The notes beneath the pieces are model-generated. The model ran no database searches. It was given only the letters and a program-made list of their open reading frames with translations, and was not told the DNA's origin. Shown here in pieces: positions 30,101-56,798 of a stretch of 64,000 bases of DNA; positions within the stretch are counted from its first letter, which is position 1; each line of letters starts with the position of its first letter. The translations under genes and the position numbers were made by a program. The stretch comes from Laccaria trichodermophora. Lineage: Eukaryota > Basidiomycota > Agaricomycetes > Agaricales > Hydnangiaceae. The stretch is from positions 372,001 to 436,000 of the forward strand of contig JACTVC010000033.1 of the NCBI GenBank assembly GCA_018417955.1, given 5' to 3'.

Positions 30101-33100
30101 CAGATCCAGTTGGTGCCAATATCGTGATTCTGTGTGATTCATTATGTCTGTCAAAAAATGCTATTAATGCCTTAATAACCTGTGATTTTCCTGTTCCACC
30201 CATTCCTCCTAAATACATTTTAAGTTGTTCACTTTTTGTCATTGTAGCATGATTTGCCACTATGCGAAAAGCTCTTTCCTGTTCATCATTAAGACTGAAT
30301 TCATGAACAATTGTATCAATCAATTGCTGCTCATGTTCTTTCTCTGCTTTGAAAATTTTATTTAAATAACTTATATCATCTACAACTACCTCATCATTTG
30401 TTGTACTATTTTTATCTTTTATTGCTTTGGCTTCAGGTAAATTTTTAGAACGAGTAGCAATAAAAAGTTTTTTCAGTGATTGTACAAGTACATTCCACTG
30501 AGAGCCAGACTGTTTCTCTCCTGGTTTGAAAGATGTGTCTACTGGGTCAATATTTCCAATGCAAGAATCTAGCCACCCAGCATTTTTTACTACATTTTCA
30601 ATTCTGTTCATTTCATGAAGTTTCTGGTTATTAATGCTATTAGGATTACCTAACATATACATATCTTCATCAATATCTATGGGAATATCCTCATTGATGA
30701 GAGAACAGTTGGTATCAACTTCACCACTATCTTCCCATGACCCAAATATATCTTCTCTTGCATCTTTCTTTTTCATCTCAGCAGAATAATCATCTCGAGC
30801 ATCGTTGCATTTGTATTTTATATTGAAGTTCTTCATAAGTTCTAATTGTCGTGCTGAAAATGAATATCCAACAAATGCTTCATCCCATGACTCATTTTCC
30901 AATTTAAGATACTTTCCACATCGCCAAGGTTTGAAAAGTGCAAGCATTGTAGAGCAATAATACTCTCGATCTCCTTGGTCACATCTTGGTAATCCACCTC
31001 CAACAAAATTTGGAACAAGAGCATTTTCTTCATCAACAACTGTAACCTTATGAGTACAATACTGAGGATGCTCTGGAAGAAATTCATGGCTTTCATGTTC
31101 ATCATACATAATTTGGTAATCATTCAGTTCATCCTCAGAGTCTAGATCTTGATGCCCAACTTCATCTTCTATGTCATCATCTATACTGTCTCCTCCACCA
31201 AGAAAATTAATTTCATCTTCTCCTTCTGTGTCTGTGTCATCATCTTCTGCATTAGATTCTAGTTCATCCTTATCATAATGAACATCAAACTCTTGCTGTT
31301 CTTCTTTTGAACGCTTCTCTTTTTTGGCTTTACGTATCCAGTCATATAGAGACATGTGCTCATAAGCAGTTGGGCAGTAGATATAATCATATACACTTGA
31401 TATTCCAATGTATGTGCCATCATACTTCTGCAAAACTACTTTGTCTGGTGCATCTTTATATTCAGTGTTAAATGACTCTGTTGTATTATTTTCTGTATCT
31501 ATCCATGCACTTCGTGCCTCTCTTACATAATTTTTCCAATAGAAAAGAATGAATTTGTGGCTGGTATAATGGTCAGGATTTCCAAGCAGATAAAGAGAAG
31601 CCATGGGGCTTCCAATTTCCATCTTTGCAGTCAATGTGTTTACCATTTTTGTCATCAAGCGCCGAGCTGTGTTTTGCCTATCTGTACTACCTCCGATCAT
31701 CTCAGAATTTCTATTGAATACTTGTCAGACAGCATCAAATGTGGTATATGAACTTAATCCTGATTTTGTAACATAATCAGTGATATACCCTACAACAGCT
31801 TTGATCGCTGTACCTGACATCAAGCTAGTAACATCTGTATTGCATCTAATCATGTATGTAAGTTCTGGTGTAAAAGTATTTAACCACATTTCACCTTTCT
31901 TCATTTTTAAAGCACCACTAAGTGGATCCACCATTGTCTCTTCAACAATTTCTCAAGGAAAACGAGCTTTGCACTGACCACGTGAATTGAGGCACCCCTT
32001 ATGTTTAAGTTTAGTAGGGTCCTCCCCATCTATTTCAGGTCTACGGCATCCATGATGATTAGATCGAGACAGAATATATTCAGTGTCAGTGTCAGCAAAA
32101 TACAGACAGATGGGATGTTTGTTGTCTGTTGGTGATAGAGTAATAAACCATGAAGGTGCACCAATATAAGATATTAGAGACCAAACCTCATTTCTCATAT
32201 ATTTCTTTGATGTAATGGATCCCTGCACATGACCTCCCACTGAATCTAAATCGGTAAGTAGCTGGAAGCATTCTTTTTCCTGCTCTGTTTCAGGCTTCAC
32301 ATGCTCCCCCAATGCAAGTCATTTATTGATACCAGATAAAACATCCATATCAAGATTTAACAGGTGATCTGTGACCAAGGAAAATGAGGACTTTTTGGTT
32401 GTAAGATATCCACCTGTTGTACTTTGTTGTATTTGTTCATGGTTAAACCCTATCAATGGAAAATGTGGGTCCATCTGGAAGTGTTTATCATGATACATTA
32501 ATAGAAGACGCTTGTGTGCCATGGAAGAAATATTTTTAGGAATCATATTGTTACATATGCCACCAAAACCATATGGAAATAACCATGGTAACATTGAGGG
32601 AAAGAGTTGAGGATTATTATAAACTGAGTTAGGTTCATCAGAGTGGCCAACAAACATAATTTTTTTATTGGATGTAAGATGCTCCAATGCCTGTGCTTTA
32701 ATAGCCTCCAATGGCATTGTGGAGTATCCCTCTCCTGTCAACCCTTGGACAACAAATGTGCATGGACCTTCCATGGTTCCAATTTCCTCACCATCATCAT
32801 GTAAACTTGTAGCCTCCCTGTCCTTGTTAACAATAGATTGACGATAGTCAATCACAACTGGTGCATCACATAAAGGGTACTGACTTAGATTTTCCTTGGA
32901 AATTCCAATATCATAGTAATCTTCATGATTCAATCTCAACCATTCCAATGCTTTTGCAACATGCAATCTTCGTACAAGCAAAGGTGTATGTTGAACATCT
33001 TTTTTTGTGGGTTGGCATGGACCTGTAAACATTACTGCTAAGACTTCATCAAGATCTTCAATAGGTGGAGGGAGTGTATCATAGATTTTAGCAACAGGAT

Positions 33101-33950
33101 TATGAAATGTGATTGCATTTGCATGCATTTTATATCTTCCTGAAGCAACTTTTATAATACATCTATTATGTCGGACTCTGGAAATTAAAAGCTGCTCAAC
33201 ATAAGTTAGGGATGCAAGTTCTTCAGGTATTTTTCCAAGCCAAAATCCATTGCAAAGAGCTTTAGGAGGTGTTAATCCTTTTTTAAGAAATTTTAAGCAG
33301 TCCTTGCATATATGTTTGCAATCCGGATCAATAAAGTCGAGTCACTCCTCCCCTTATCAGTGGTTCAAAACTACATGTAACTTCACTGCAATCTATCATA
33401 TCCACAACTCTTGTGAGCTGGCCACATGCTGCACACCCAGCTTCAATTAAGTTTGAAGGGTGCCTCTACAAAACCCAGTTATAATTTTGTGAATTAATTT
33501 TTCAGAGGGTGGCTTTGGAGGAAATATTACATTTTTTGACTTTATATATGAAATTTTGTTTTCAATAGAACGGTTATTTTTGAAGGTTGACTTGGTTTTA
33601 CACTTGGACAACCCAACTTTGTTGACTTTTTTATGATCACTTTTACTCAATCCCTTATACCATCTTGCTTTACGTTCTGTAGTTGTAAGGGCAGGATTTT
33701 CAGGAGAAAATAGGGTATAATAATGGGCACAAAGTGAGGTGCACATATGTTGAGATAACAGTTCCATCACTTCAGTGACTGGAGCTCTAGCAAATACTGA
33801 TACATGGTGCTTTTTTGCAATTGCTTTTGCCTGTCCAATAGTAATAGAGTCTTTCAAAATCTCTAAGTGAGTATGTTTTACGCAACTCAGCTCTTGCAGC
33901 CTGTAAGACAAGTTGATCAACAAATTTATATTTGACTGACCCCTCCAATT
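27164..33950 (-). mobile_element. Helitron, formerly autonomous, 3' end defined
   Basis: On the minus strand the element ends at 27,164 with TGCCATGCTTGCAATGGC, then CTCTGACACAAG. This is the same 3' terminus as the HLE-A elements, including aggactcat upstream. It carries the Rep-helicase frame at 27,522-33,923. No 5' end of HLE type (TTAYGAGTCC on the minus strand) is found upstream, so the 5' limit is not defined and may have been lost. An AT-rich ~65-bp duplication sits at 27,296-27,425. Confidence 0.75.
27522..33923 (-). pseudogene. Helitron Rep-helicase fused to C19-like domain, decayed
   Basis: One continuous minus-strand frame interrupted by TGA at 32,319, 31,953, 31,725, 29,496, 28,941 and 28,152. 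Domains in order: a SAP-like helix (33,840), a Cys-rich finger with GCAACGQLTRVVDM in a shifted frame (33,440-33,390), FWLGKIPEELASL, the Helitron N domain (FPSMLPWLFPYGFGG), APSWFITLSPTDNKHP, the Rep tyrosine region (VVGYITDYVTK) and a PIF1-type helicase (Walker A GGMGGTGKS, IDEVSM, FAGDFAQLKPVQG, TDYASQGKT). The tail has DSVDYSCSYDSLFTIL and FHFTAYVITPGKEVWYHDG, like the Cys and His boxes of C19 deubiquitinases. The HUH segment expected between ICLYFADT and LSRSNHHGC (about 32,075) is missing. Frameshifts lie near 33,460 and 33,340. Confidence 0.85.
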
Positions 33951-35025
33951 TCATACTGGATGATGGTGTGTCAGATGTAATATATGGTTTGAGGCTCTCA
34001 AATGTTGTAAGTTTTTTTCCACCAGCAGTTTGTTGAGGTAGTATAGTAATCATAGGTTCATGGCAATAACAGCCATACCAATGGGTTATTGAATGGAGGT
34101 AACTAGAGTTAGCTTCTAGTGAACTAAGCACTCTATTAGACAATGGGAGTTCATAAGTATACCAAATTGATATAGATGACCAAGATTCATAACCCACAGA
34201 CCTGAAGACATCTACAGATTGAACTGATCTATGAAATAACATGAATTGAAGGCTAAAAGAGAATATGAAGAAATAAGAGAGAAGCTTATAAGAGCCTTGT
34301 AATCTCAATAATTTTTTAATCAAGTTACGGTATTCATGTTTCAGCATGCAATGCTGTTGAAATTGACACCATAAGGCCACACACAACCGAGAAGGTGTAT
34401 CGTTTGAACACAGATAGGCAAGTATACAGGTGTGTAAGATATATGGTATTGTGAGATGCACATATTCAAGCAGAGCATTCAGTATCATCCAACATATAGA
34501 GGGAAATGATGGTAAGGCGTTGGATAGATTTGTGATTCTAATCTTCGTGATATTGGTAAATTGAACTTGTATCTCATTCCATCCTTGCGATCGAAGGTAT
34601 GTGTAAAGTGTATGTGCTCTATTCAATCCCTGCAAAATGTATCTGTACTTTCTGTGTGTCTCATTCAATCCTTGCAATTGAATGTATGTGTACTTTATCT
34701 GTGCCTCATTCAATCCTTGCAATTGAATGTATGTGTCATTGACATGTGCTGTATCATGACTACAATTATGGTAGTCTGGTGCCAATAGGCCATGCCTCTC
34801 AACCAAGGTAGCTGGTCGAGTATCAAGTGCCAAAAGGCTGTGCCTCTCAACCAACGCAGCTGGTTGAGCAAAAAATGCCAAAAGGCTCGAATTGTTTCCA
34901 ATCTCTATATATGGTTTGAAGTGATGACAGGAGTCATCAAGCAAATGATGTGTGTTGAAAATCAGGGATATGCCGATGAGGATAAGAAGCATAATGAAGA
35001 AAGCAATGGCTCGTGTAGTATGCAT
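33787..35025 (-). CDS. Hypothetical membrane-anchored protein, repeat-bearing
   Basis: The ATG at 35,025 (context accatcatgc) opens 412 codons. Residues 1-22 form a hydrophobic signal or anchor (AIAFFIMLLILIGISLI). Residues 55-85 hold two tandem copies of a LVERHSLLA-type unit, and residues 95-155 hold four units like YTYIQLQGLNE. Further hydrophobic stretches follow at about 195-210 and 250-265. The last ~45 codons overlap the Helitron frame in another phase and are probably read-through into it. Two CACGTG boxes lie upstream at about 35,075 and 35,118. I recall similar single-copy-looking proteins in mushrooms but no function. It is open throughout, unlike its neighbours. Confidence 0.5.
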   Translation of the reverse strand: MHTTRAIAFFIMLLILIGISLIFNTHHLLDDSCHHFKPYIEIGNNSSLLAFFAQPAALVERHSLLALDTRPATLVERHGLLAPDYHNCSHDTAHVNDTYIQLQGLNEAQIKYTYIQLQGLNETHRKYRYILQGLNRAHTLYTYLRSQGWNEIQVQFTNITKIRITNLSNALPSFPSICWMILNALLEYVHLTIPYILHTCILAYLCSNDTPSRLCVALWCQFQQHCMLKHEYRNLIKKLLRLQGSYKLLSYFFIFSFSLQFMLFHRSVQSVDVFRSVGYESWSSISIWYTYELPLSNRVLSSLEANSSYLHSITHWYGCYCHEPMITILPQQTAGGKKLTTFESLKPYITSDTPSSSMKLEGSVKYKFVDQLVLQAARAELRKTYSLRDFERLYYYWTGKSNCKKAPCISIC

Positions 35026-35188
35026 GATGGTAAGATCAAGAAAGAAGAATGAAAAACTTACGCAATTGAACTTGAACCTTCACGTGACTGGACAAACAAG
35101 CGCTTATATTCATAACAACACGTGACCTATATGTACACAAATTCAGATGTCTTCTCACTCTCTTTGATTTTCGCTCGCGTGTATACTA

Positions 35189-35805
35189 TTATGCATGATC
35201 AAAAAAGGCTGTAGCTCGCTGTTCCCTCATAGATTTGAGTTCCCATGTTTCCTTATGTCCTTTGAGCTTATTCCTCCAATCTGATACTGTAAGAGGTTGA
35301 GCTGCACCCAAACGAATATCTTGCAAGCATTTAACATATGTTGATTCCAACATCTCATTCCAGTGACCATAACTTTCACATGCATTGTTGTTGTCAAAGA
35401 TGTTGTAAGGTGGCCACCATGATTTGTTGGAATATACTTTGGCAACTCCTTGATTTCACAGAATATTCAGAAAGTGAAGAGTTTCTAATCAGAAACATAC
35501 CTGTTGAGCACACATACATTCCACAGATCCAGTCCATTTCATTATGAGTCAGCTTATCATCGAGAAGCGGTGGATATCCTTTCCTATCATTGACAACAAG
35601 AAGGCTTCCTCCTCCAACAGGTCCTTCCAACAACTCATCTATGCTCACGCTTCCAATTGTCAATCGCCACAAAAAACCACCACAAAGAATAGCTGCCTGT
35701 ACACGGGGACGTCGAAGAATTCGTGATCGACATTGCAGATATGCCTCATAATCCAATTTGGTAAAGCGGTATCTGGCAGGATGCTGTGGAAGAAATAACT
35801 CAACA
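35189..35805 (-). pseudogene. C-terminal part of gene split by HLE-A
   Basis: The minus frame from 35,805 reads VELFLPQHPARYRFTKLDYE, then RPRVQAAILCGGFLWRL and DKLTHNEMDWICGMYVCST. A 52-nt intron (35,449-35,500, gtatgt...caag) joins in frame to VAKVYSNKSWWPPYN and a short C-terminus ending at a TAA (35,189). No stop occurs in this part. Its N-terminal half lies at 42,804-44,496. The family is the same Agaricomycete hypothetical family as 23,929-26,780, known to me only from memory. Confidence 0.75.
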
Positions 35806-36149
35806 TTACGAGTCCTCTGAGTTTACGAAGAGACTCATTTATTACCCAGGATCTCAAGACTTTTTTCAGCACAGTAACACTGAAATTTGACTTTCTCCCA
35901 TGAAAGTGATTTCTTCCCACGATCATCTGCTTGGTTTGCCTACATGACTTTCCTAGTCTACTTGACCATTCCTTGATTATTATTGTCTTTTAGCCCTATC
36001 CAGATTGTCGTTGATGTAGGTTGTGGCTAATACATTGCTCTATTTAGCTTCCAGACTCTGATGAATGAATGCATTGCCTCTATTTTCATGTTCACGCAAC
36101 TCAACTTGTTTACATTGAAGGTACAACAATTGAGGTCATGACAACTTGT

Positions 36150-36540
36150 GCAAATGAGCCCATGCTCAGGTGAAACAGGCCACAGGAATGTTCTGAGCAG
36201 TTGGTGAGCACAAGGCAAAAAAGCCAAAACACAAACCTACTTACCTGGATGGAAACTCAACCATTTTGTAAACGGTTTTGTGGAGCTTGTTTGTGGAATG
36301 TGTAGGTATTGAATCAAGTCCATGCTCATGCAAAATGGACCACAGGAAGGTACTGAACAATTGGTGAGCATAAGGCAAAAAAGCGAAAATACAAACCTAC
36401 TTACCTCCATGGGAAGTTGATTGTTTTGTAAATGGTTTTGTGGAGCTTATTTGTGGAATGTGTAGGTATTGAATTGAGTCCACACTCAAGTGAAACAGAT
36501 GGCAGGAAGGTACTGAGAAGTTGTGAGCATAATGGTGAAT
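36150..36540 (+). repeat. 160-bp satellite, two diverged units
   Basis: Units with cttacctggatgg at 36,236 and cttacctccatgg at 36,397 are 161 bp apart. They match the array at 14.6 kb in the same orientation but are CpG-poor. Confidence 0.75.
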
Positions 36541-36571
36541 TCCACTGATCAAAAGGAATGACTCACAAGTT

Positions 36572-36677
36572 GAGTCACGGAAATTTCAGAAAATGACGTA
36601 CTTCCCTTGCGGGCTATCTTCAAAATGCAAGGTAGCCCGCAAGGGAAGTACGTCATTTTCGGGCAATGCCGTGACTC
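36572..36677. repeat. Foldback hairpin, copy 3, at satellite inversion point
   Basis: The arms start gagtcacgg and end ccgtgactc. The inner arms hold gaaaatgacgtacttcc and are perfect. It separates satellite units of opposite orientation. Confidence 0.9.
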
Positions 36678-36679
36678 GT

Positions 36680-38045
36680 CTTTTTGCCCTTATGCCAACC
36701 TCTGCCCAGGACCTTCCTGTGGCTCAATTCGCTTCAACGTAGACTCGTTTGGGTAGTGCTTCACGTCCCGAAAACGCTCCAAGAAGCCGTTTACAAATCC
36801 GTCAACTCCTCGTGGAGGTACGTCTGTTTGTACTTTCGTGTTTTTGCACTTCTGCTAAACTCTGCCCAAGGCCTTCCTGTGCCTCGATTTCCTTCAACGT
36901 AGACTCGTTTGGATAGTGCATTATGTCCCGAAAACGCTCCAAGAAACCGTTTATGAAACCGTCAACTCCTCGTGGAGGTACGTCTATTTGTACTTTCGTG
37001 TTTTTGCACTTCTGCTAAACCTGCCCAAGACCTTCCTGTGGCTCGATTTCCCTCAACGTAGACTCGTTTGGATACTACTTCACGTCCCAAAAACGCTCCG
37101 ACAAACCGTTTACGAATCCGTCAACTCTTCGTGGAGGTACGTCTATTTGTATTTTCGTGTTTTTGCCCTTCTGCTAAACTCTGCCCAAGGCCTTCCTGTG
37201 CCTCGATTTCCTTCAACGTAGACTCGTTTGGATAGTGCATTATGTCCCGAAAACGCTCCAAGAAACCGTTTACGAAACTGTCAACTCCTCGTGGAGGTAT
37301 GTCTATTTGTACTTTCGTGTTTTTGCACTTCTGCTAAACTCTGCCCAAGACCTTCCTGTGCCTCAATTTCCCTCAACATAGACTCTTTTGGATACTAATA
37401 TACGTCCCGAAGACACTCCAACAAACCATTCACAAATCCGTCATCCCTTCGTGGAGGTACATCAGTTTGTAATTTCGTGTTTTTGCACTTATGCTCAATG
37501 CTACCCAAGACCTTTCTGTGGCTCGATTTCCTTCAATGTAGACTCGTTTAGACACTACTACACATCGTAAAAACGATCCAATAAACCGTTTACAAATCCA
37601 TCAACCCTTCGTGGAGGTACGTCTGTTTGTAATTTCATGTTTTTTAGACTTATAATACCCTATGCCCAGGACCTTCTTGTGGCTCGATTCCCTTCAGCAT
37701 AGACTTGCTTTGATACTACTACATGTCCCACAAATGCTCCAACAAACCATCTACAAAACCATCATCCCTTCATGGAGGTATGTCACTTTGTATTTTCATG
37801 TTTTTGCACTTATTGTAAACTCTGCCCAAGACCTTCCTGTGGCTCAATTTCCTTCAATGTAGACTCATTTGGACACTACTTCACATCTCGAAAACACTCC
37901 AACACACTGCTTATGAATCCATTGACCCTTTGTGGAGGTACGTCTGTTTGTAATTTCGTGTTTTTTGAACTTATGCTAAACTCTGCCCAAGACCTTCCTG
38001 TGGCTCAATTCCCTTCAGTGTAGACTCATTTTGATACTACTACAT
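36680..38045 (-). repeat. 160-bp satellite array, inverted, about 8 units
   Basis: The marker gtggaggta recurs at 36,811, 36,971, 37,130, 37,290, 37,450, 37,610, 37,771 and 37,931, spaced 159-161 bp. The unit is the reverse complement of the 14.6-kb satellite (cgctcc...aaccgttta...gtcaactcctcgtgg). CpG content falls from left to right along the array. Confidence 0.9.
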
Positions 38046-38188
38046 GTGTGCAAGTAGTAGAATAGCAGTGGATACCCTTCACACCTTTAACACTGGTCTG
38101 TTTGATGGCAGCACCCCCTAGATATTCCCCTTTGTTGTTTTTAGTTGGTGCATGCATCCCTGGTTATATCCTCAGGTTTGTCCAGTAT

Positions 38189-38772
38189 TAGTGTTTGAAA
38201 GTCTGGTTCGGTCTGGTTTTTTGATGCCCAGGGGCATTAACCGTAACTGTAACTGGTCTGCCTTTTCCCCAGAAGTCAAAAGACCAGACTGGACTGCAAA
38301 AAGACCACAGACCATGGTTTTTTGCAGTCTATAGACCAGTTTCAGTCTGCATCAGTTTTAACCAGTTTATGACCAGTCTTTAGGCAAATATTTTAAAATT
38401 ATGAATTGGTAAATTTATTAACATCTCTATTAGCTTCAAAACAAGCCCAAGAACGTTAAATTCCATTAGGAATTGGTACTTCTATAAAATAAGTCTGGTA
38501 CATCTATTATTCCCAAAAGTAATTTACATTTTAATTCATATCTCTCTCACTTTTTGACCAAATCGTACGTTCTTGGGTGCGTGTTAAAGGGTATTTAAGG
38601 GGCTACAAAAGACCAGTCCAAACCGGTTAAGACCGGTTCATGTTAACCGGTTTTTTTGCAGTCTTTACATCTCAAAAATAAAAAGACCGAACCGCAGGTC
38701 TGGTCTTTTGCAGTCTTGGTCCAGTCTGGTTATGGTCTTTTTCCAGTCACAAGACTGAACTTCCAAACACTA
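38189..38772. mobile_element. hAT-type MITE, 584 bp, with 8-bp TSD
   Basis: The termini TAGTGTTTGAAAG and CTTCCAAACACTA are inverted, and both sides carry TCCAGTAT (38,181-38,188 and 38,773-38,780). TAGNG ends and an 8-bp duplication are typical of hAT elements. The interior repeats agaccag, tgcagtct and gaccggtt-type blocks near both ends, as subterminal binding sites would. It is non-coding and nested in HLE-A copy 2. Confidence 0.85.
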
Positions 38773-39019
38773 TCCAGTATCATGCCTTGGACAATATACA
38801 ACTCTTTTACTACTTCAGGATTGAGGAGATGTTTTCTGGATTGTTATTTAACAATTTATTGTGTTACATTGTATTAATCTGCTTACCCCACCAAGCACCA
38901 TGAATTGATTACATCATATTCTGCCATCTGTAGTCCAGTTACTCAATCCTTAGGACAGTTCAACATGCAGGCGTATATGACAGTGCCATCCATGAGGCAA
39001 AGAAGCCCTGTGATAAAAT

Positions 39020-39345
39020 GTTAAAGACAACAGTGTTGATCCACTTGCATTTGCTTACCATGTTGAGCCATTGTGGTGTCTGGACCAAGGGAAATGCATA
39101 AGGTGTCTTCCCATGCAGCTTTGTGTTTTAATGCTGCAGGATCCATGTCTACCATGTACATGAGGATGCATTTGACATTGATGGTGTTATGCACCAGGGG
39201 ATGGGTGGCAACTTTGTATAGGTAGGGGAAGCATTCATTCCAGTGTTCATTGTAGACAAGACATCTGCCATCAACCACAAATCACTTGTCTTCTGGTCCA
39301 TTGGGTCACATGGTCTGGATCTTATCCACAAGATATGTTGGAGAC
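39020..39345 (-). pseudogene. Unrecognised coding fragment
   Basis: The minus frame reads PNGPEDK, TGA, FVVDGRCLVYNEHWNEC, then YKVATHPLVHNTINVK and YMVDMDPAALKHKAAWEDT. TGA codons at 39,306 and 39,282 again fall where arginine fits. Coding character is good, but I cannot name the family. It may be a host gene piece carried inside the HLE. Confidence 0.45.
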
Positions 39346-39659
39346 ATTACTATGAGATGGAACTTGATATAAGTGCCTGGTAACATGTAATAAGGATATG
39401 CATACCTGATAACTTGACATGGATGAAAGAGTTGTGTATGAATTAGGTTTGGTAAATGTACAGGCATTGGAGGGAAGGAAATAATGGGGGGGCGTTTATC
39501 TTGAATAAAGCCCTGGCACAGTTAATGGTAACTAAATCTACATGCTCAGATCTTGGCACTTAGCATGTGCCAACAAAGAGGAAATAGCAGGATTGGATAA
39601 TCCAGGAGTAATCTGGATAATCCAGCAGATTACTCCACAAGACAATTGTGGTAGGTTCT

Positions 39660-39870
39660 TCATGCTCAAAGTGTTTGGACTGGCCAAGATGACAATGGGC
39701 ATGCAGAGTTGGTGTGGATGTATTGCTGTGAGATGAATATGGTAGACACATGGGACTTGAAGCATTTGGACTGGCCAAGACAACAACAAGCATGCAAAGG
39801 AAACAGACAATATGTGGTAGATACATTGCATGAATCATTTGGACTGGCCAAGATGACAAAGAGCACAAGA
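39660..39870 (+). repeat. ggactggccaag motif repeats, second site
   Basis: Three motifs at 39,670, 39,766 and 39,838. The stretch 39,720-39,870 matches 16,660-16,820, including gcatgcaaaggaaacagaca. Confidence 0.8.
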
Positions 39871-40639
39871 TGACAAAGTGCACAGCAAAAGACAGGGTGC
39901 CCTGAATTTGCACAGCTTTGGAGTGAAGAGCCAGAATTGATGACACATGAACATTTCCTAATCATTTGATGTGTCATTGGAATCTATGATGAATACTACT
40001 GAAGTTGCACAGCCTTGGTACAAAAGCTCAAGATTCTATGATGCATGAACATTCCCTGATTGTTTGATGGGGGGAAGTTTCATGCATCATCAGAATCTGT
40101 GATGCCAAGATGACAAGAGATGAGAGATGAGATCTAAGATGTACCCCCCAAGATTTGCCTCCCCTGCATTTTTAGATTGTGGGAAAGATTGTTTAGAAAG
40201 GAAATAGATCATGAATCTTTATTTATTGCCGAAAATGGTAACTGATCTGATATCTACTATGACATACAAAACTGTCCCCCATCAAATGATCAGGAAATGT
40301 TTGTGTGTCATCGCTTCTTGAGTACCAGTGTTGCCTAAAGAAAAATGTGTAACTTTACCAAATCAAGTCCAATTCAGATGAAGTAAAATGCACAAAAAAT
40401 GTAAAATTTCAGGGATCATGATTGTATACAATTCATTAAGACATATTATGTAATAAGGTCAAAGTCTGAATAAACATACTTATATAAAGAAGAGTCTGAA
40501 GCTCACCAACATAAAATCTAAATTGAATGAAATAAAACACCAAGAAAAAAATATAGTCTGTTGTTAGGTATATTATGTAATAAAATCCATATGCACAAAT
40601 AGACATATATTTGCACAAATCAAGTTAATGCAAGCTTTT

Positions 40640-42780
40640 TCAATGAAGAAATAGCAATAAATGAGCACAAAATCAAAAGAAAATGACTGATGGTGCTCAC
40701 TGTTGGTGACAACATTTGGAAACACTTTCAGGGTCCATGGTAAATTTCCATATAAGGCACTCAGCATTTGTCCAACTGAAAAATAGCAATAAATGGCAGA
40801 AAATTTGAGAAACAATTGAAGAATGGTGCTAACTGTTGGGGCTAATGTTAGGACTGTTTCAAGGGTCCCAGGTGCATTTTCTTAACTGGAAATTTATCTA
40901 ACAATTGCCAGAAAATAACACAAAAATCACAGAAAATTGGACTAAATCTTGTCTTTCTCCCATAAAATTTGATGGTTTGATGATGTAGAATAATGTTGTT
41001 GAACATTTTCTGAAAGGAAATATAGCAATAAAAATAGAAGACAAATCAGAAACAAATGGGGGACAATGTGCACTATTGATGACAATGTTACATAGCATAT
41101 TATTTCTAAATAAGGAAATGTGCGCTTTTTCAGATGTAAAATAGCAATGAAATAGCAGAAAAATCAGAAAAAATTGAGGGTGGTGCTTACTCCTGGTAAT
41201 GATGTTGGAGGTTGTTTTTAGGGTCCAGGGGACATTTCTAAATAAGGAATTAGATGTAAAATGGCAATAAAATAGCAGAAAAATCAGAAAAAATTGGGGG
41301 GTGGTGCTTACTGTTGGTAATGATGTTGAAGGTTGTTTTCAGGGTCCAGGGTACATTTCCAAATATGGTAAAATGGCCAAAAATAGCCAGAAAATCAGAA
41401 AAAAATGGAGGATAGTAGTAATAACCTTGGGTAATGTTGTCAGGGTTCAGAGGCTAGTCCCAATATGGTAATATAACCAGAAATAGCCAGAAAATAGCCA
41501 GAAAATCAGAAAGAGATGGTGCTTATTGTCAGACATAACCTTGGGTAACATTGTCAGGGTCCAGAGTCTAGTTCCAAATAGAGTAGTATAAACCCAAAAA
41601 TAGCCAGAAAATAGCTAGAAAATGAGAAAAAAATGGGGGATGGTGCCCATTGCAGTGATAACATTGGGTAATGTTGTCAGGGTCCACTTCTGAATATGGT
41701 TATATATCCAAAAAAAAGCCAGAAAACTGTTATAAAATCAGAAAGAAATGGAGGATGGTGCTTATTGTTAGTGATAACATTGAGTAACATTGTCAGAGTC
41801 CAGATTCTAGTTCCAAATAGAGTAATATGGTCAAGAATAGGAAAAAAATGGGGCATGGTGCTTATTGCTAGTGATAACATTGGGTAACATTGTCAGGGTC
41901 CAGAGTCTAGTTCCAAATATGGTAATATAACAAAAAATAGCCAGAAAATAGGCAAAAAATCAGAAAAAATTGGTGGATGGTGCTCATTGTTATGATAATG
42001 TTTGGTAATGTTGTCAGGGTCAAGGGTCCAGTTCCAAATATAGTATAGATTCAAAAAAACATGGGAAAGTAGTGGAAAAATTGAAAAAAAGTTTGAATGG
42101 TATGTAGAATGTCAGGCACTACCTTCAGAGTCCATACCAAAAAGAAAATATCATCTACTTTAACCAAAAACTAGAGAAAACTAAGCAAAGAATAATTTTG
42201 TCTATTAGGGCCCATGTAATGGGATGTTGGGATAATGGTCATATGACCACTTACAAAAAATAGTCAACAAATGGAAGTTGTAGCCCTACACTGTAAAGTG
42301 CTCCTCTTGAAGAGATAATCTAACTTTGTAGTCTATGTCTGACATCTGCAGTCTTTTATTGTATATCAGTAAACTTTGTAGTATAAGTTTGCTAAAGTGT
42401 TCAGGGTACAGAGCAGACATCCAAATATGGTAATCCATTAAAAAATAGTCATAAAATGTCAAGAAAATCAGTGAAAATTAAAGGATGGTGCTTATTGTTA
42501 GTAATGATGATGGGTAACAGTTTCAGGCTCTAGGGTAGACTTCCAAATATGGTAATCTACCTGTATATAATCAGAAAATGAGCAAAAAACAAGAAAAACA
42601 TAGAAATGTTATTTATTGATGGTGATGATGCTGGGGTAATTTGTTTAGAGTCCAGAAGAAGACTTATATAGAAAAATTTACTTGTGTGTGATAAAAATGT
42701 ACCCTGAATAACAGAAAAGAGAAGAAAAAATAGAAATTGGTTTCTATTGCCTTTGCAAAAGAGGACTCATTTCTGCCATG
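40640..42780 (+). repeat. ~110-bp modules, HLE-A copy 2
   Basis: The same order as 18,080-19,730 over its whole length, ending in the shared 3' terminus with ggactcatttctgccatgc. Only point changes and small indels separate the two copies. Confidence 0.85.
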
Positions 42781-42803
42781 CTTGCAATGGCCTCTAACAC
42801 AAG

Positions 42804-44496
42804 TCGGGGTACAATATTGAGCGTGGCATAAGTGGCTCAGTCAGCAAAGTGCAGAATGGAATCCCACGTAATGCCAAGAAACATGCAATATCTACATCCA
42901 GAAATTGAGCATCAAGACGGCAAACCAGCAATGCATCAGAGGCTGTTGTTACAGCTAGCCTCCAGTGAACTGTGACTTTATCGAATAAAAATACGTAAAG
43001 CCATTTCGCCAGTACATCGGTGTCAGAATTTCTGTACAAGGCAATAGAATCAAGGCGTTCACGAAAAGAAGAAGATTTTGGAAGTTCAAGATCAGAGATG
43101 ATTTGCTGCCCTTTGAGAATTTGACATGTAAATTCAACAAAAAAATGGCCCTGTGCAGTTGGCCAGAAATGAGAAACAACAGATTCAAGCTTTTTCTCTT
43201 CACAAACTCCAATCCACCACAGCCAGAATTTCTTCTCTTGGTCTGAAACCTCCTTATGATTGGCTTGGTTAAGATCTGGCAGAACCATGCCATAGTGAAG
43301 GGTCAAGATCTCCTGTACTTCTGAAATTAAGCTGGCAATTGTTGACTGGGGGCCATCTTGAAAGATATCTGGAGGTACATCTGTTTGCTCATACAGATCA
43401 TCAGGTAGAGGGGTTGGGCATTGTTGTTCACGAGGGATGAAATCAATATCATATTCAGAAGCTTGTTGATCTGCAGAGGGGGCCATATCCATGTGCTCAT
43501 CTTCCATTTCATCTGGAGATGGAGTACGGAACCTTCCAAATTCAAAACAACAATCCCATTCATTCCAATAGGAATCATATTGTTTCTGTTTAGGGCCATA
43601 TTCCTCCAAAGTCTCGATACGTTCACTAGCAAGGACTTCTTCTCAACCAGGGAGTTCAGGGTCACGGTCCCATACAAAAACCTTTGCAGATTTTATGGGT
43701 GGATTTCGTTCTCGATTCAAGCATCTTTCATGCTCCAATGCTGTCTCCAGACTTAAAAGACGGGGACGATTTTCCTCATGTCTTTCAAAGAATTCTCTCC
43801 AAGTGATTGTTTTGACTGTGGTTGCAGGAGAGCCAAGAGGATTTGCAGATGACTCTGGTATTCCACCACTTTGCGGGGGACCAAATTGAGCAAATATTGG
43901 GTCATGCTTTGCCCACTCTATTTTGTCCACATCCCATTGATACCAGATCGGAATGTTGTGAGCGATTAGCCAGTGAACAGAAGGTTGGTGAGTCTTTTCG
44001 ATGTCATCTTTGGTAAGATAGATAAACGCTCCAATGCGCTGAACTTCGTGTGAGAACATGCCAAGGTCAGATGCCTGAATTAAATCAGCAATGGCAGGAT
44101 GGAATTGCAAATGATTCTTGAGAAGAGAAGGCCATTCATAGCCCTTTTGCGATAAGCTATCTGCTCCTGCTATTAAGAATGATAATAGGCCAATCCACAG
44201 CACAAATATATCACAAGAAGCTCAGGCTTCCAGATGTGCTACTGATTGATAAGCATGTTGCCTCTGATATCCTCTGGCTGCAGGATAGGCAGGACCGATA
44301 GAAGGTATTTCATACATGCCCCCCAATATCACGATGACACTGCGAATTATGTATTCAAGCTTTGTCCAGCTATTTATCAAGTCTTCAGGCATTGAATACT
44401 TTCCCTCGATTTCCTCAATATGTATGTCTGCCAGTCGCCCCAGTAGACCACCACCAAAGAAAGGCCTTTTAGGTGTAAAGGACAGCCAACCAAAAC
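42804..44496 (-). pseudogene. N-terminal part of gene split by HLE-A
   Basis: A single minus frame with TGA at 44,222 (after AHLEA) and 43,643 (after DPELPG), both where arginine fits. It reads FGWLSFTPKRPFFGGGLLG, then VLWIGLLSFLIAGADSLS, FIYLTKDDIEKTHQPSVHW, HNIPIWYQWDVDKIEWAKHD, YGPKQKQYDSYWNEWDCC, WWIGVCEEKKLESV and ACFLALRGIPFCTLL. It ends LYPD at the HLE junction and resumes at 35,805. From memory this is a large Agaricomycete family of unknown function. Its start is cut by another HLE-type 3' end at 44,497. Confidence 0.75.
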
Positions 44497-44830
44497 TTGT
44501 GTAAGAGGCCATTGCAAGCATGGCAGGAACAAGTCCTATTTTGCAAGAGTGATAGTAACCCATTTCTGCTTTTTTTTTTTTGGTTTTTTTTTTCTGAATT
44601 TCTAGCTATATTTTTTACAAACTAGTATATCTTTCTATTTGAGTGCCACTCTGGGCTTCAAGCAGAGTACCTCAGTATCATCACCATCAATGAGCAATAT
44701 TTCTTATTTGGAAGTCTATCTAAACTTGACATCATCACTATTAATCAGCACCATCCTCAATTTTCTCTGATTTCTCTGCCATGTTATGACTATTTTTATT
44801 AGCTTACCATATTTGGATATCTACTTTAAA
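44497..44830 (-). mobile_element. HLE 3' end fragment, minus orientation
   Basis: Starting at 44,497 (plus cttgtgtaagaggccattgc) the sequence is an inverted copy of the HLE-A 3' end, followed by inverted modules (ccatatttggatat, gcaccatcctcaattttc). It has poly-T tracts near 44,570. The flanking base on the 3' side is T. The 5' end of this copy is not identified. Confidence 0.7.
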
Positions 44831-45322
44831 CCCACATTATCTAATGAGGATCCTACAATTAAGGAGTGCATACTGCAAGAAGAACCATGTCATTTGGACC
44901 ACAAGTGGCAGAGCTAGGTAGAGACTATTTATTTGCATTTACATACATTTTTTTATCCTCATTTCAGAATGATCCTACAATTAAGGAGTGCATACTGCAA
45001 AAAAGACTATATCATTTGGGCTACAAGTGGCAGAGCTAGGTAGAAATCTTCAAGATGGATTACTAATCATTCAACATGTGCAAGCAACTTTACCTCCTTG
45101 GTGGTAAAGTTGTTTGCATTTGTTTTTAACCATATGATATCATGTGGATTGAAGTTCAGTATACAGAAACCAACATTTCCTAAGAGTACTTGTGGGTGTG
45201 GGCCAGTGCTTTGCATGGCATGTATGAGTCCTTCCTGTGGACTCTAAATTTAATTTTCAGAAATTGGTCATGTGACAACCCTCCTGACATCCCATCAGCT
45301 GCAATGACATGTAATCACTTTA

Positions 45323-48300
45323 CTGTGACTGATGGGGATCCTGGTCACACTAATGTTTCTGTGTAATTACTCAAATAATATCATGTCTATGTTTCTAAAA
45401 TTTTACTGACGTACTGGCTAGTATCTCATATACTCAAAATCAAAATTTCCTGATTTTTAGAGAAAGAATTGCAGATGAGGTGAATATTTTACGAAAAGGT
45501 GACCATTTTTGGCCAAACCTGGGAACCTGGTCATGCGCGGCAATTCCATCAAACTTTCGCACTGATTCGATTCTGACACAATCTACTCTGTTCCACAACA
45601 TCACCACACACAATGAACGAGTCAGGTATGTAATTTACTTTGTCTACTTCGTTATAAACTAACTACTTCATCTATAGCGCCGTTTTGGACTCTTCAACGG
45701 GCTTTGTGGTGTTTTAACCCGTGAACTTCGTCGCAGTTGCGGGGCCGGCTCTGCAGATGGTGCCATTATCAGTGCATCCATGCTGGCACCTGTCATTCGA
45801 GATGGCACGCGTTGTCGGGTTGGTCTAGTGGGAGATGGAGGAGGACTCTCTTCTCCCTCCTCAGAGAACACATGGATGATCGGCTCTAGTTGGAATCTGA
45901 GGCGTTGCAGGGGCTGCGATGGTCCAGCACGAGGACTTGTAATCAAGGGCATCGGTGTCGTCGTTGGTGAGGGTACCTGTGCTTGGTGCGGAGGAGTCTT
46001 GTTTCCAGAATGCTCTAGGGGAGTGGCATGCTCCCAGAGCCGGCGACGTCTAGGATGCCATGCAGGAGTAGATGGCGATTTATCTTGGTTAGTGTGCATG
46101 GGTGAGAGATTTCTTTCGGTATTCTTTTTCACTGGTCGCGGACGCGGACGCGGTTGTTGGTTCACTTGTGGTTGTGGTTGTCGCTGGGGTTGTTCAGGTG
46201 TGGATACAGTATCATTGCGTGTCTTGGCCTTCTGAGGTGTTGGTGCCAGTCCGGCTTGTGGAGTTGGGCTGTTGGGTGATAGCATCGAGAAATCAAAGTA
46301 CTCCTGGTCTGAAGAATCGGAGTCGGTGGATGGTCGCTTGTTAGACTTTGCATGACTCCGACAACTCCCTTTTCTCTTTGGTGTTTCTCCCTCCTTCGAT
46401 TGCTGATTACGCTCACTCCTCTCCCGTAGGCGTGTAGATTTTGCAGCTTTCGTGGCCTTTGCCTTTCGTGGCGGCAGCTTCTTCTTCAACTTTTCCATCT
46501 CCTCCATTGCAAATTTCCCAAGCCCAGCCATCTCACGACGCCATCGTACCAACTGTTTCTCTGCCTCTGCCTCTGCCTTCTTCTTCTCAGCAGCGTGGCG
46601 TTTGTCTAGTGCACGTTCCCGCTTCTCCTGCTCCAAGGCTTTCTTGTTGTGGTTAGCAATGTCCTTCTCCTGTGTTTTGCCGCGCTCTCTGATAAGTTTA
46701 AATGTAGCTTGCATCTCTGTCTTCCAGTCAGAACACGCCAGCTTTTCAAGATTCTCTGTCGACGTCATGTGGCGTGCATCAGATGATTCGCGCTGGTCCT
46801 TCCCTTTCTTCTTGGCCTTTGTGTACGCCCGTTGACGAAGGCGGCCATTTTCATCATCCATCAACCGCATCTGTGCATAATCGGCTTGGATCTGTTGGTC
46901 TGCACGGTGGAGGAGGTCGAAGAGTGTTGCATTTTGCAGACATAGTGCTTGTCGCGATGCCGTGTGATGGAGGGGTGATGGGATGGCAAGCCGGAAATGA
47001 GCCCGGATTGTGAGGTTGGAATCAGGTGTAGTTGTAGGGATGGGGTTGGTGTTATCGTCATCAGATGTTGGTAGTATGAGCTCGATTGGAACAAGGTCGG
47101 GGATAATTGCTGGTAGTGGCTGGGCTGACTTTATTGTTGTGTTCAACGAAGGTTCGAAAACAATTGGATCAAGGGCATCTCGATCTGTTGGCCAGATACC
47201 AGTCCGTTTGAAGGCTGATTTGATTGTTGAAGGCTGGAAAGCCTTAACACGAGCCCGTGAATAATGACCGATAAGATTGGATTTGGTTATTGGGACGTGA
47301 CCACGGGCTGCTTTGTTGACCTCGCTTTTCCAGCACGACGAAAGGGGGCCGAAAACGCCAACATCGCAAGGTTGCAGGACATGAGTTGTATGTGAAGGAA
47401 GACAAATAATGATGATTTTATGTCTCTCCGCAAATTGGCAAAAGGAGTACGTGCAGTGGGAATTATGACCATCCAGAATTAACAACCGATAGCCATCCTT
47501 GTTCTTCATACGTGCGGCACTTGCAGGCTCAAAGTCCTTCTCCAACCACATAGTCCCCAGTTCTTGGTCAGTCCAACCATTGGGCGAGCACGATACACTG
47601 TAATTGGGTGCTTAGATAAAGTCATCTGATCTTCAAGTTCCATACTCACCTCGCATGACAAGGATTATCACGTCCCCATTCAAGATTGATTCTTGCACCC
47701 TTGAAGATGAACGAAGGGGGCAATGCAGTTCTGTCAGTGCTGACTGTTTCAATAACAGTGACAAGCTCGCGATTACCATCTTCAAGACTGTAGACCTCCT
47801 TCTGGTCGCAGTCAATAATTGCCGCTACTCGCTTTCCAACCCCAAGCTGAATGCCTTTCTCGTCCATGTTGTATATGTCAGACTCATCAATATTATACTC
47901 CTTGACAACCTCTTCAAAAACGTCAAAGAATTTGTTGATTGTGGCAGGGTTGTCATTATTTGCACGGCACTTCTCGAGGCTTTGGGTATATCGTGTTTTG
48001 AGATCGGGATGGCGATCCATGAACCTTTTGGGCCATGACTTGCCAATGGAACACCCTGCGATGGCCTCAGCATGGTCGCCAAGAGTTGATGGGGAGATAG
48101 GAACACCGCGTCGGCCTTGGACCTTGATCCAGTCAGCAAGGATACGCTCCTCCGCTTTTGTAAGCTTCTGCTGATGTTCGTGTGCATCATTCCAAGCAGG
48201 AATACCATTATAGCGGGCAGTAAGAGTAGATCTGGAGACGTCAAAATCCTTTGCCGCCTGTCGGAGTGATAATTGGTGTCGACCATCAGGTAGAATTGGA

Positions 48301-49306
48301 CTCTCATTGACAGCCTGCAGCGCAAGTGTTATCCGTTGCTCAACACTGAGATTGGAAAGATCAGGAACAGTGTAAGTGTAGGACATCGTGTGCAAATGGG
48401 GTTCTGAGTGCCGTTGATTGATACTAACGACACACTTGACCAGAGGTTTATAAAGCTGCGATAATGCTCATTCAAGTAAGAAAATAGAGTGGAGCAACTC
48501 CGAGAAAGAGAAGTGTAACGGAATAGAAGAGTGACATTCAGGAAGACTCGGAGCAGATGTGCTCTGATTTGGTGCTAGCAAGTGTTCGAAAATTCATTGA
48601 AGCAGAGCAGTCATGTCCGAAAGGTGGGTCATATACCTAGAATACAATGACCATACCTTGGGCAATAATACCTAAGTGTTGCCTCTCCTTGCCTTTAGCT
48701 AGTGAAGAAAATATTCATTCAACAAGTCAAAGGCCCAAAAAATGTTCATTATAAAAGATACATGTGTGAGAGACTCAAAAAAATTGCTAAAAATATGTGG
48801 TTAGGCTCAGAGACATGATTAACATGGAATTAAAATACTCCATCCATTTTTGCGCCCATATCGCTTGCAATGTGCCTCTCAGCCAACCTAACATCATGAT
48901 CTCTGAACTCAGTACGAAGAGTGACGCCGCTTAACAAATTGGTGGTAGCAGCATGAAAAGAGATCTTCAATGCCAGAATGGCACTATTAATAGCAGGTTA
49001 GATGTCTAGCATTGCGCCGCTACAGTTGTTTCCATCTAAATGGATTTTGAGCAGACTTAAATCGATCCGCTTCTTCACCGGAGGTCGTCCAAATTAAGAA
49101 AGTCCCATGATGTCAATCAAACTCCCCACAGATGAACAGATTTCTTCACAAGGTACTGTCGTACAAGTGTCAAACTGTCTTGATTACTGAGAGATTACCT
49201 TACACTAAAGCTTACAGGAAAAAAATTGAATCAAATCGCTCATTCCCTTGCTCTAGAGTGGTTGTGACCAGCTTCCCAGGTTGACCTGGTTCCTGATTAC
49301 GTACAG
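45323..49306 (-). mobile_element. pogo-type DNA transposon, 3,984 bp
   Basis: It is flanked by TA (45,321-45,322 and 49,307-49,308) and interrupts HLE-B at a site that reads cactctatgatttt in the uninterrupted copies. The imperfect ~25-bp inverted ends start CTGT and share GGA.CC.GGTCA. It encodes one spliced transposase. It is CpG-rich compared with its surroundings, which fits a young insertion. Confidence 0.85.
45668..48386 (-). CDS. pogo/Tc1-mariner superfamily DDE transposase
   Basis: It catalyses cut-and-paste transposition of its own element in the nucleus. The ATG at 48,386 was chosen because the frame upstream has only a TTG. Exon 1 runs to 47,650 and exon 2 starts at 47,597; the 52-nt intron has gtgagt...attacag ends and joins in frame to GWTDQELGTMWLEKDF. 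The product is 888 residues. A psq-type HTH (LSLRQAAKDFDVSRSTLTA) and a Tc5/CENP-B-like HTH come first. Catalytic Asp residues fall at about 175 (YNMDEKG), 288 (LILDGHNSH) and 324 (LQPCDVGVFG), a DDD triad. A ~560-residue tail carries a Lys/Glu-rich coiled coil and a basic, Pro-rich end. No stop or frameshift is seen. It is probably functional. Confidence 0.9.
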
Positions 49307-50351
49307 TATGATTTTCTGAGTTTTGTTCTATATTTGCAAATGGACCCTGAGCCCTAAGCCTAGCCATCAATATCATAGCAACAATGTGTACTATTTTTAT
49401 TTTCCCTTTTTTATTTGTTATTTTATAGCAATTTTTCCCAATTTTATAACTCTTTTTCTGTTTATGTTAAAATATTCCCACAGTTCTGTTTGCATATATC
49501 TCATGAAAGAGGATGGTAAGTTATATTTTGTGACCTATAATAGCATGCTCTATATATCTGTGATGAATTTCCTTTTTGGGTTAAAATTCCCACAGTATCA
49601 GAAACACAGCCTCTCACTTAGCTCCACTAACAACAATTGTAGCCCCTTTCCTTACCTTTACAAATATATATAAATATTGTCATGCAGACCATTCCTCATT
49701 GAGAAAAACACAAAATGCTGAAAAAATTGGACACTTTTTGGAAATTGTCATGCATTTTTGACCAATATCTCAAAGAGCAAGAAGGCTGGTCTGATGATAT
49801 ATATAGTCACATTGCATAATATGATAATATTTTTACATAGTTGTCTTAATTTTCTATATTTGGACATGGACCCTGAACACTGGACACAGCCTCTCATACA
49901 TCATGGCAACAAAAAAGTATCATTTTGATTTTTTACTCAATTTTTTCTGATTTGCTAGCCATTTTTCTTCCTTTGTTCTATGTTTAGATATGGACCCTGA
50001 AGCCTGAACACAGCCCCTTCAACACCATGGTGACAGAGAAGATGCCTCTTAATTTTTGGGTATTTTTTTCTGATTTTCTGGCAACTTTTAGGTGGTTTCT
50101 ATATTTAGATATTGACCCTGAAGCCTGAACACAGCCTCCCCACCTTACTAAGCAATATTCTGATTTTTTACTTTTTTTTTGCTAATTTTCTAGCTATTTT
50201 CCCTGATTTTATGGCTGCTTTTCTGTTTAAGAGAAAAAGTTCCTGCGGTGATGAAAGGTGAATCAATGAATGAATGAAAAAATGAAAAATTTGCCTAAGT
50301 TCTCAGTTGATAAAGAATGAGTCTTACTCATGAACTCGTAAGGACTCATAA

Positions 50352-51835
50352 CATATGTCATTTTAGACTATTTATTTGTATTTACCTACATTTAGCCTCA
50401 TTTCAGAATAATCCTACAATCAAGGAGTGCATACTGCAAAAAAAACCACATCATTTGAACCAGAAGTGGCAGAGATAGGTAGAAATCTTCATTTCCACCA
50501 AGAATCATTCAACATATGCAAACAACATTACCTCCTGTGTGGTAAAGTTATTTGCATTTGTTTTTGACCTTGTGATATCATGTGAATTGAAGTTCAGTAT
50601 ACAGAAACTAACATTTCCTGAGGGTACATATGTCATTTTTGACTGTTTATTTGTATTTACCTACATTTATCCTCATTTCAGAATGATCCTACCATTAAAG
50701 GGGTACATACTGCAAAAGAAACTATGTCATTTGGACCAGAAGTGGCAGAGCTACATATACATCTTCATTTTTGGTGGACCAAGACTGATTACTAATCATT
50801 CAACATGTGCAAACAATTTTACCTCCTGTGTGGTAAAGTTGTTTGCATTTGTTTCTAACCATGTGATATCAGATGGACTCAAGTTCAGCATACAGAAACC
50901 AACATATTCTGAGAGTACATATGTCATTTCAGACTATTTATTTGTATTTACCTACATTTATCCTCATTTCAGAATGATCCTACAATTAAGGAGTGCATAC
51001 TGTAAAAAAAAACCATGTCATTTGGACCAGAAGTGGCAGAGCTAGGTAGAAATCCTTGCTTTCACCAGATTGGATTACCAAGCATTCAACATGTGCAAAC
51101 AATTCTACTGCACATGTGCAAACAATTCTACTGCACATGCAGTAACTCAGTTTGCATTTGTTTTTAACCATGTGATATCATGTGGATTCAAGTTCAGTAT
51201 ACAGAAACCAATGTTTTCTAAGAGTATACATGTCATTAGATACTATTTATTTATATTTTCCTACATTTATCCTCATTTTAGAATGATCCTACAATTATGC
51301 AGTGCAGACTGCAAAAGAAACCATGTCATTTGGACCAGAAGTGACAGAGCTACATAGAAATGTTCATTTCTATCAAGATGGATTACTAATCATTCAACAT
51401 GTGCAAACAAAATTACTGCATGCCTGGTAAGTCAGTTTGCATTCATTTTTAACCATGTGATATCATGTAGATTCAAGTTCAGTATACAGAAACCAATGTT
51501 TCCTCAGAGTACACATGTCATTTCAGACTATTTATTTGTATTTATCTACATTTATCCTCATTTCAGAATGATCCTACAATTAAGGAGTGCAAACTGCAAA
51601 AAAAAACCATGCCATTTGGACCAGATTTGGCAGAGCTACATAAAACCAACGTTTTCTGAGAGTACACATGTCATTTCAGACTATTTATATGTATTTACCT
51701 ACATTTAGCCTCATTTCAGAATAATCCTACAATTAAGGAGTGCATACTGCAAAAAAAACCATGTCATTTGGACCAGATTTGGCAGAGCTACATACAAATC
51801 TTCATTTTCGCTAAAAATGATGACTAAGCGATGAC
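50352..51835 (+). repeat. ~290-bp tandem repeats
   Basis: The marker gactatttattt occurs at about 50,366, 50,642, 50,932, 51,240, 51,526 and 51,678 (short unit). Units contain gatcctacaattaaggagtg, ccatgtcatttggaccaga, tcattcaacatgtgcaaaca and aaccatgtgatatcatgtgg. Single units lie near 17,729, 44,880-45,185 and 52,709. No coding potential is seen. Confidence 0.85.
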
Positions 51836-51879
51836 ATGTGCCAAAGATTGTCTGAACCTGTGCTTTTTTCGATATATTA

Positions 51880-52510: not shown

Positions 52511-52861
52511 AAAGACACTGCAAAACAAACTATGTCATTTGGATCTGAAGTGGCAGAGCTACATAGAAACCTTTGTTTTTGCCAAAAGAGATTACTAAGC
52601 ATTCAACATGTACAAACAGATTTACCGCACGCGATATGTTTTAAACCATGTGGCTCAACTCCAATACATACAAACCAAAGTTTACCAATAGACTACAAAA
52701 TTTAGTTTCAGACTATTTATTTGTATTTACCTACATTTATCCTCATTTCAGAATAATCCCACAGACAAGGAGTGCATACTGCAAAAAAAAAACCATGTCA
52801 TTTGGCCCAGAATTGGCAGAGATACATACATATTCATTTTCGCAAAAATGATGACTAAGCG

Positions 52862-52921
52862 ATGACGTGCATGTAAGCTTGTCTGAGAGCTGGGGTTCAG
52901 ACGAGCTTACACGGACGTCAT
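52862..52921. other. Two-stem hairpin with TGACGT outer arms
   Basis: ATGACGT pairs with ACGTCAT and GTAAGCTTGTCTGA with TCAGACGAGCTTAC (one mismatch), with a 10-nt loop. The outer TGACGT resembles the foldback hairpins at 17.1 and 36.6 kb, but the inner arms differ. Confidence 0.8.
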
Positions 52922-56741: not shown

Positions 56742-56798
56742 ATGCATTGGGAGTCGACATGCGTCGTATTTGTGTCGTTGTGCATGGTGTTGAGTCAA

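Follow-up and report, generated by a model that had tools for sequence, protein, structure and literature searches.

A non-coding Helitron-like element inside a broken copy of its likely RepHel-coding helper in Laccaria trichodermophora

The locus

We analysed a 64-kb window of the Laccaria trichodermophora genome (contig C27, JACTVC010000033.1, positions 372001-436000; the genome comprises 59 Mb in 77 contigs). Within this window, a minus-strand gene is split by a plus-strand element of 6,998 bp, which begins at 35806 with TTACGAGTCC and ends at 42803 with CACAAG (Table 1). The longest stop-to-stop stretch of this 7-kb element is 146 codons. We found that the split gene is no ordinary host gene. 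It belongs to a truncated relative of the element that codes for RepHel, a protein combining a Rep domain of the HUH-Y2 type with a PIF1-like helicase.

Table 1. Features of the 64-kb window (positions are those of the window)
Feature	Position	Strand	Evidence or remark
Further full-length family member	14206-19734	+	both ends present; joined flanks without empty counterpart
Broken RepHel unit that carries the insertion, left part	27164-35805	-	3' terminus CTCTGACACAAG, followed by T, at 27164
PIF1 helicase region, broken RepHel gene	29496-31700	-	Pfam domain
DUF6570 and Helitron_like_N (Rep, with a stop) regions, broken RepHel gene	32091-33128	-	Pfam domains
C-terminal part of the interrupted gene, part of the RepHel unit	35189-35805	-	homolog alignment
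Non-autonomous Helitron (7-kb element)	35806-42803	+	6,998 bp, TTACGAG...CACAAG; nine empty paralogs, ends repeated genome-wide
5' hairpin GAGTC(C)TCT...AGAGACTC, containing the 5' arm GAGTCCTCT of the asymmetric inverted repeat	35810-35836	+	folding
Two-block array of the 160-bp satellite	36173-36532; 36676-38041 (inverted)	.	~100-bp palindrome between the blocks
Segment that is collinear (75-85%) with inner sequence of the C4 33-kb RepHel unit	38045-40098	+	the nested 584-bp element is the sole interruption
hAT-like miniature inverted-repeat transposable element (MITE), 584 bp, nested	38189-38772	.	terminal inverted repeat (TIR) TAGTGTTTG; 8-bp target-site duplication TCCAGTAT
Degenerate ~100-121-bp repeats in the 3' region	41132-42090	+	repeat analysis
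3' arm of the asymmetric inverted repeat, AGAGGACTC	42760-42768	+	ends 35 nt before the 3' terminus
3' palindrome GCCATGCTTGCAATGGC	42775-42791	+	12 nt before the 3' terminus
Upstream part of the interrupted gene	42804-44495	-	stops where the second family member begins
Second family member, inverted	44496-57843	-	3' end 44496; probable 5' end 57843, diverged alternative 56741

The 7-kb element inserted cleanly

The insertion site reads ACTCAACA, the element, then TCGGGG, with nothing duplicated and nothing lost. We joined the two flanks (100 + 100 nt) and found that they align without gaps over 200/200 nt, at 96-96.5% identity, to nine paralogs in the same genome that lack the element (L002-L008, L012 and L014; three of these were seen a second time as L009, L015 and L018). 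The expected reading of the empty site is ACTCAACATCGGGG, and the junction letters were inspected directly in three of the nine uninterrupted paralogs. The junction falls within the Asp codon of LYPDVELFLPQHPARYRF, a peptide that four protein homologs (P0001-P0004, 46-73% identical to the query) cross without insertion or deletion. The more distant P0005, P0007, P0010 and P0011 differ in length by 1-3 residues, a few residues from the junction. The named homolog of the interrupted protein, from Pholiota molesta, is 30% identical. An AlphaFold2 model of P0002 had a mean predicted local distance difference test score of 52 and was not used.

A preliminary description of this locus had proposed that the two minus-strand pieces are halves of one gene, that exact excision of 35806-42803 rejoins them, that no target site was duplicated, and that an alignment to family members would show this. 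The nine paralogs and P0001-P0004 are all continuous through the junction, which bears out the single gene, and in the alignment the close family members run across it without a break. The exact excision also holds in the nine ungapped paralogs, except that the phase of a single T stays ambiguous; beyond this T, the paralogous empty sites show no duplication. Both proposed termini, at 35806 and at the CACAAG ending in 42803, proved exact, and both recur genome-wide. The right-hand piece, given as 42,804-44,496, is indeed part of the gene, with the correction that the last gene base is 44,495.

Family ends, targets and empty sites across the genome

Exact matches to the end patterns number 97 for the 5' end and 97 for the 3' end. 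With at most one mismatch, we found 158 and 124 matches, respectively, compared to 8 and 15 for reversed control patterns. The pairing and clustering statistics are based on exact ends only. Once the 12 cases of tandem 5' ends among them are collapsed, there are 60 adjacent 5'-3' pairs on the same strand, and 48 of these span less than 20 kb; in 1000 random strand flips the number averaged 33.5 and never exceeded 44. At L092, L022, L032 and L045-L048, the 5' end was also seen doubled, at a spacing of ~185 bp and with the inner flank constant.

The flanks of 40 elements (32 smaller and 8 large, a subset of all end pairs) were joined, and a gap-free match across each junction was sought in the sequence already fetched, with mispaired (shuffled) partners and deliberate cross-contig joins as controls. 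An empty counterpart was found for 18/40 elements (12/32 smaller, 6/8 large), against 43/774 mispaired partners and 0/5 cross-contig joins. Four of the positive joins match the neighbouring unit of a local tandem array, and 14 match other loci. No duplication beyond the ambiguous T was seen in any of the 18. One pair, C4:704903/711743, was dropped as mispaired, its 3' flank being that of an inverted duplicate. At C4:711729-717484, two RepHel-unit tails face each other with identical 3' flanks of nested members, which is an inverted duplication.

The base after the element is T in 40/40 sites. The base before it is A in 20, G in 15, T in 4 and C in 1 (purine in 35/40). Strict insertion between A and T, as the first site had suggested, was therefore rejected.

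Structure of the ends and interior

The end sequences that we aligned had been picked by likeness to the 7-kb element, so that their uniformity is partly selected. The 3'-end alignment holds 39 sequences, one of which (L078) was read with one base too few. The 5' hairpin folds with z = -2.3 in two other copies and -1.0 in the 7-kb element; the sixth sequence of the fold set (27177-27225) lacks the last ~12 nt of its 3' end. The 5' arm GAGTCCTCT starts at nt 5 and, with its 3' counterpart, forms an asymmetric terminal inverted repeat, as in Helitron2. Its core GGACTC lies at the 35-nt distance in 6/7 distinct 3' ends listed, the 7-kb element included, and the seventh has a mismatch. In other copies the 3' palindrome has GCCG..CGGC, with one compensatory pair. 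In the 7-kb copy, the lowest-energy 3' fold differs from the palindrome fold. Canonical Helitrons carry a hairpin 10-12 nt before the 3' end, and Helitron2 has one at each terminus; in the present family the 5' hairpin has folding support, whereas at the 3' end the palindrome at 12 nt shows its compensatory pair but no folding advantage over shuffled sequences.

Two other arrangements of the ends were rejected. The hairpin end was considered as the 3' end, but the orientation of RepHel identifies TTACGAG as 5' and CACAAG as 3'. The inverted motifs CTTGTGT...ACACAAG around the upstream gene piece, which might be taken for the TIRs of a single element, are the facing 3' ends of two family members.

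Regarding the interior, the element is non-coding, carries satellite repeats, and has its ends and part of its interior in common with a RepHel-coding partner, which corresponds to the description of HINE. The 160-bp satellite switches orientation at the ~100-bp palindrome (36569-36677), and a related stretch was found at 17046-17149. The C4 33-kb relative lacks the 584-bp MITE at the corresponding place.

Larger members with the same ends encode RepHel

One relative contains a 2,330-aa open reading frame (ORF) with DUF6570, Helitron_like_N and PIF1 domains, the last ~28 residues of which come from a nested member. Other relatives have open frames of 2,716 aa. By eye, the family 3' end was located downstream of RepHel genes of the same orientation at 12 loci. 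In the C4 33-kb copy, the RepHel frame, itself split by a small repeat, ends ~300 bp before the 3' terminus. Among 647 homologs, HUH and YxxxY patterns occur in all of the 120 listed, and Walker A in 100 of these; all three patterns are loose and were counted without a control. A search of the PDB reached the helicase part only, with Helraiser (7lcc) among 19 matches.

Pfam scans covered 12 ORFs in the RepHel-unit sets, a subset of all ORFs. No Helentron endonuclease domain was seen in the scan of the 2,330-aa ORF, and the other scanned ORFs of this subset had no further Pfam domain above the cut-off (PF19662 fell below it).

Three 5' ends of RepHel units have their inner 1.3-2.0 kb in common (98.6-99.7% identity), with different flanks. 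The C4 33-kb unit matches the 7-kb element over 190 bp at the 5' end (80%) and 44 bp at the 3' end (89%), and ~1.4 kb of interior is collinear between the two. The small element could be derived from the large one, or both could carry the same older repeat. Members with the same ends encode a Rep HUH-Y2 and PIF1-like helicase protein, as expected of the Helitron order, and the Helitron-like identity put forward in the preliminary description is upheld by relatives that share both ends with the 7-kb element.

Classification and alternative explanations

We conclude, with a probability of about 0.92, that 35806-42803 is a non-autonomous rolling-circle transposon of Helitron2/HINE-like structure, presumably mobilised by the RepHel of large family members and inserted in a now broken copy of its likely helper. 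By analogy with the known Helitrons described in PMC5148889, PMC4067079 and PMC4289320, RepHel (HUH-Y2 nickase and PIF1 helicase), supplied by family members of ~30-40 kb, would recognise the common ends. It would nick at the 5' end, and the helicase would unwind up to the 3' signal, so that one strand could be peeled off or copied. This strand would then be joined in front of a target T without duplicating the T. Here the target was a gene of a RepHel unit, which leaves the 7-kb element inside a broken copy of its likely helper.

The class is that of a non-autonomous Helitron, Helitron2/HINE-like by structure. The empty sites show no target-site duplication, as in the Helitron order, with a phase ambiguity of one base. 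The duplication of at least 2 bp expected of long terminal repeat elements and TIR DNA transposons was found neither in the join tests nor in the nine paralogs. Canonical Helitrons (Helitron1) insert between A and T, and here A precedes in only 20/40 sites; Helitron2 inserts between TTTT and T or C, and here the upstream T-run is absent. We filed the element as Helitron2/HINE-like because the canonical TC, CTRR and A-T target all fail, while the asymmetric inverted repeat and the HINE description apply; the Helitron2/Helentron target does not.

Several points weigh against our conclusion. We infer, rather than observe, mobilisation in trans by RepHel. The canonical 5'-TC and 3'-CTRR are absent, the aligned ends being TTACGAG (one TTACAAG) and CACAAG. 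The 3' palindrome is short, and the 3' ends fold no better than shuffled sequences (z of -0.1 to 0.7). Within the fetched sequence, 22/40 joins had no counterpart. The 5' end of the RepHel unit in the window was not found, and the sequence expected beyond the far side of the second member is absent among the matches on the window contig. The second member (44496-57843) contains a Tc5/pogo-like DDE transposase, presumably part of a nested element. Finally, the phase is ambiguous by one base, since T stands both at the start of the element and directly behind it.

This last point underlies the strongest alternative. Because of the T at both places, the absence of a duplication and a 1-bp T duplication around an element one base shorter give identical letters. 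A cut-and-paste or integrase element, TACGAG...CACAAG between two Ts, is thus compatible with the letters alone, and it would suit both the T that begins the element and every 3' flank (40/40) and the DDE transposase within the second member. We consider it very unlikely, since the ends are not mutual terminal inverted repeats and bear subterminal repeats of the Helitron type, and RepHel is encoded in larger units that share these ends. Moreover, neither a DDE nor a tyrosine recombinase domain appeared in the 12 ORFs scanned, and an ordinary duplication, of 8 bp, can be seen at the nested MITE.

A Crypton-like element, moved by a tyrosine recombinase, would likewise leave little or no duplication and could account for the fixed target T. 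Its chances are slimmer still: larger units with these ends carry a RepHel gene, and the Pfam scans made yielded no tyrosine recombinase domain. An in-frame junction of two unrelated gene pieces, by chance or by an assembly artefact, is refuted by the nine paralogs and the closest outside proteins, all continuous through the junction, and by a second element with the same ends in the window.

Large units, nesting and neighbouring features

Six of the eight large RepHel candidates, 29-50 kb gross, passed the join test. These are the C11 47-kb (96.7%, 120/120), C23 42-kb (95.8%, 119 nt), C4 50-kb (98.3%, 120/120; counterpart at window 19475-19594), C2 33-kb (95.8%, 120/120) and C4 33-kb units (92% over 78 nt, local tandem array) and, weakly, the C39 29-kb unit (only 68% over 107 nt). 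Several of these lengths include nested smaller members (4.5 kb in the C11 47-kb unit, 6.2 kb in the 50-kb unit). Within the fetched sequence, no empty site was found for C12:4715430-4746683 (31 kb) and C12:3212454-3259892 (47 kb). A ninth candidate, C2:880694-931265, encloses the C2 33-kb unit and is flanked by halves of one sequence that meet at query position 217.

On C4 we observed an apparent three-level stack, in which a 6.2-kb member lies in a RepHel unit that itself lies in a small member with ends 715733 and 772717. These outermost ends probably belong together; the join test found no empty counterpart for them. Among the tested insertions, 22/40 have flanks resembling sequence of the same family, and this nesting may simply reflect where the elements live. 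Exact ends occupy 25 of ~236 250-kb bins on 16/77 contigs, and some contigs have more than one island of family ends. A tentative and rather doubtful extension is that the partners, as giant Helitrons, transpose in one piece of ~30-40 kb with several further genes and stack with their non-coding dependants into Russian-doll islands, maybe centromeres. The spread over 16/77 contigs, some with several islands, does not show one island per chromosome and lowers the odds of this reading.

If the second member ends at 57843, more than half of the window, gross, belongs to the family. Past the upstream part of the gene, the empty copies continue from AACCAAAA into TTTGCTGTCC, where the window instead reads CTTGTGTAAGAGG. 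Since this is the reverse complement of the family 3' end, the second, inverted member starts at 44496. It is not demonstrable as a clean insertion because its far flank was not found on the contig. The far side has undergone deletion, rearrangement or loss, so that the RepHel unit must be truncated or rearranged at this place. The transposase pieces inside this member (DDE_1 and HTH_Tnp_Tc5) lie at 45668-48395 on the minus strand. In addition, repeats of ~1.1 kb, possibly flanked by TA, occur at 3886-5051, 21054-21929, 49307-50358 and 57846-58719, and were also found inserted in a C4 RepHel unit.

Taken together, these data describe a fungal Helitron family in which large units code for RepHel and small dependants are non-coding; its two ends, many empty sites and the rule that T follows are defined. 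Structure-based Helitron finders use the TC/CTRR rule, which these ends violate, and they probably overlook such families. Since family members insert into one another, the succession of insertions can be read.

Comparison with known systems

FoHeli, the Helitron2 of Fusarium oxysporum (PMC5148889), resembles the present family in its asymmetric terminal inverted repeat, RepHel and clean pre-insertion sites. Terminal hairpins are present in some FoHeli elements, short 5' termini (typically <200 bp) are duplicated like the tandem 5' ends here, and one non-autonomous member lies inside a putative autonomous one, as in our window. However, the FoHeli ends differ (TCAG/ATTTT or TGCCT/CTCCTGT), FoHeli1 and 2 insert between TNAT and A, and the elements measure 5-11 kb, against RepHel units of ~30 kb or larger in the present family.

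DINE-1/HINE elements, which are non-autonomous Helentrons (PMC4067079), are likewise non-coding, with a 3' palindrome and unmodified empty sites. As here, they have subterminal inverted repeats, a few nt inside the 5' terminus and ~38-60 nt inside the 3' terminus. In some copies tandem repeats make up to about half of the length, a likeness to the satellite-bearing element described here. The preliminary description had called a repeat-rich 7-kb element without coding capacity unusual; the structure is as described, and these known elements make it less surprising. In contrast, HINE targets are T-rich, and here any base, mostly a purine, precedes the T. Helentrons encode an endonuclease domain, and none was seen here in the Pfam scan of the 2,330-aa RepHel ORF. 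Proto-Helentron-Pi of Phytophthora (PMC4067079) has a 5' TT and no duplication, as here, and inserts between A and T, where in our family A is the commonest base before T. It ends in CTAG and is ~14 kb long, while the 3' end here is CAAG.

HELPO1 and HELPO2 of Pleurotus ostreatus (PMC4289320) are mushroom Helitrons with RepHel and captured genes, and HELPO2 has a 3' end other than CTRR (CTTG). They differ from the present family in length (1.5-13.7 kb), T[C/G] 5' ends, AT target and a RepHel of ~1400 aa, against ORFs of 2,330-2,716 aa here. Our literature search, with subscription journals mostly outside its reach, returned no paper on giant or long Helitrons in fungi or on DUF6570 with Helitrons.

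A Helitron with non-coding dependants is a known kind, and what is notable is the size of the RepHel units and their stacking. Their size prompts the question of how rolling-circle transposition copes with such lengths. The largest published Helitron that we met measures 35.9 kb, in maize (PMC4289320), a figure that the ~30-40 kb RepHel units, with their clean empty sites, approach or exceed.

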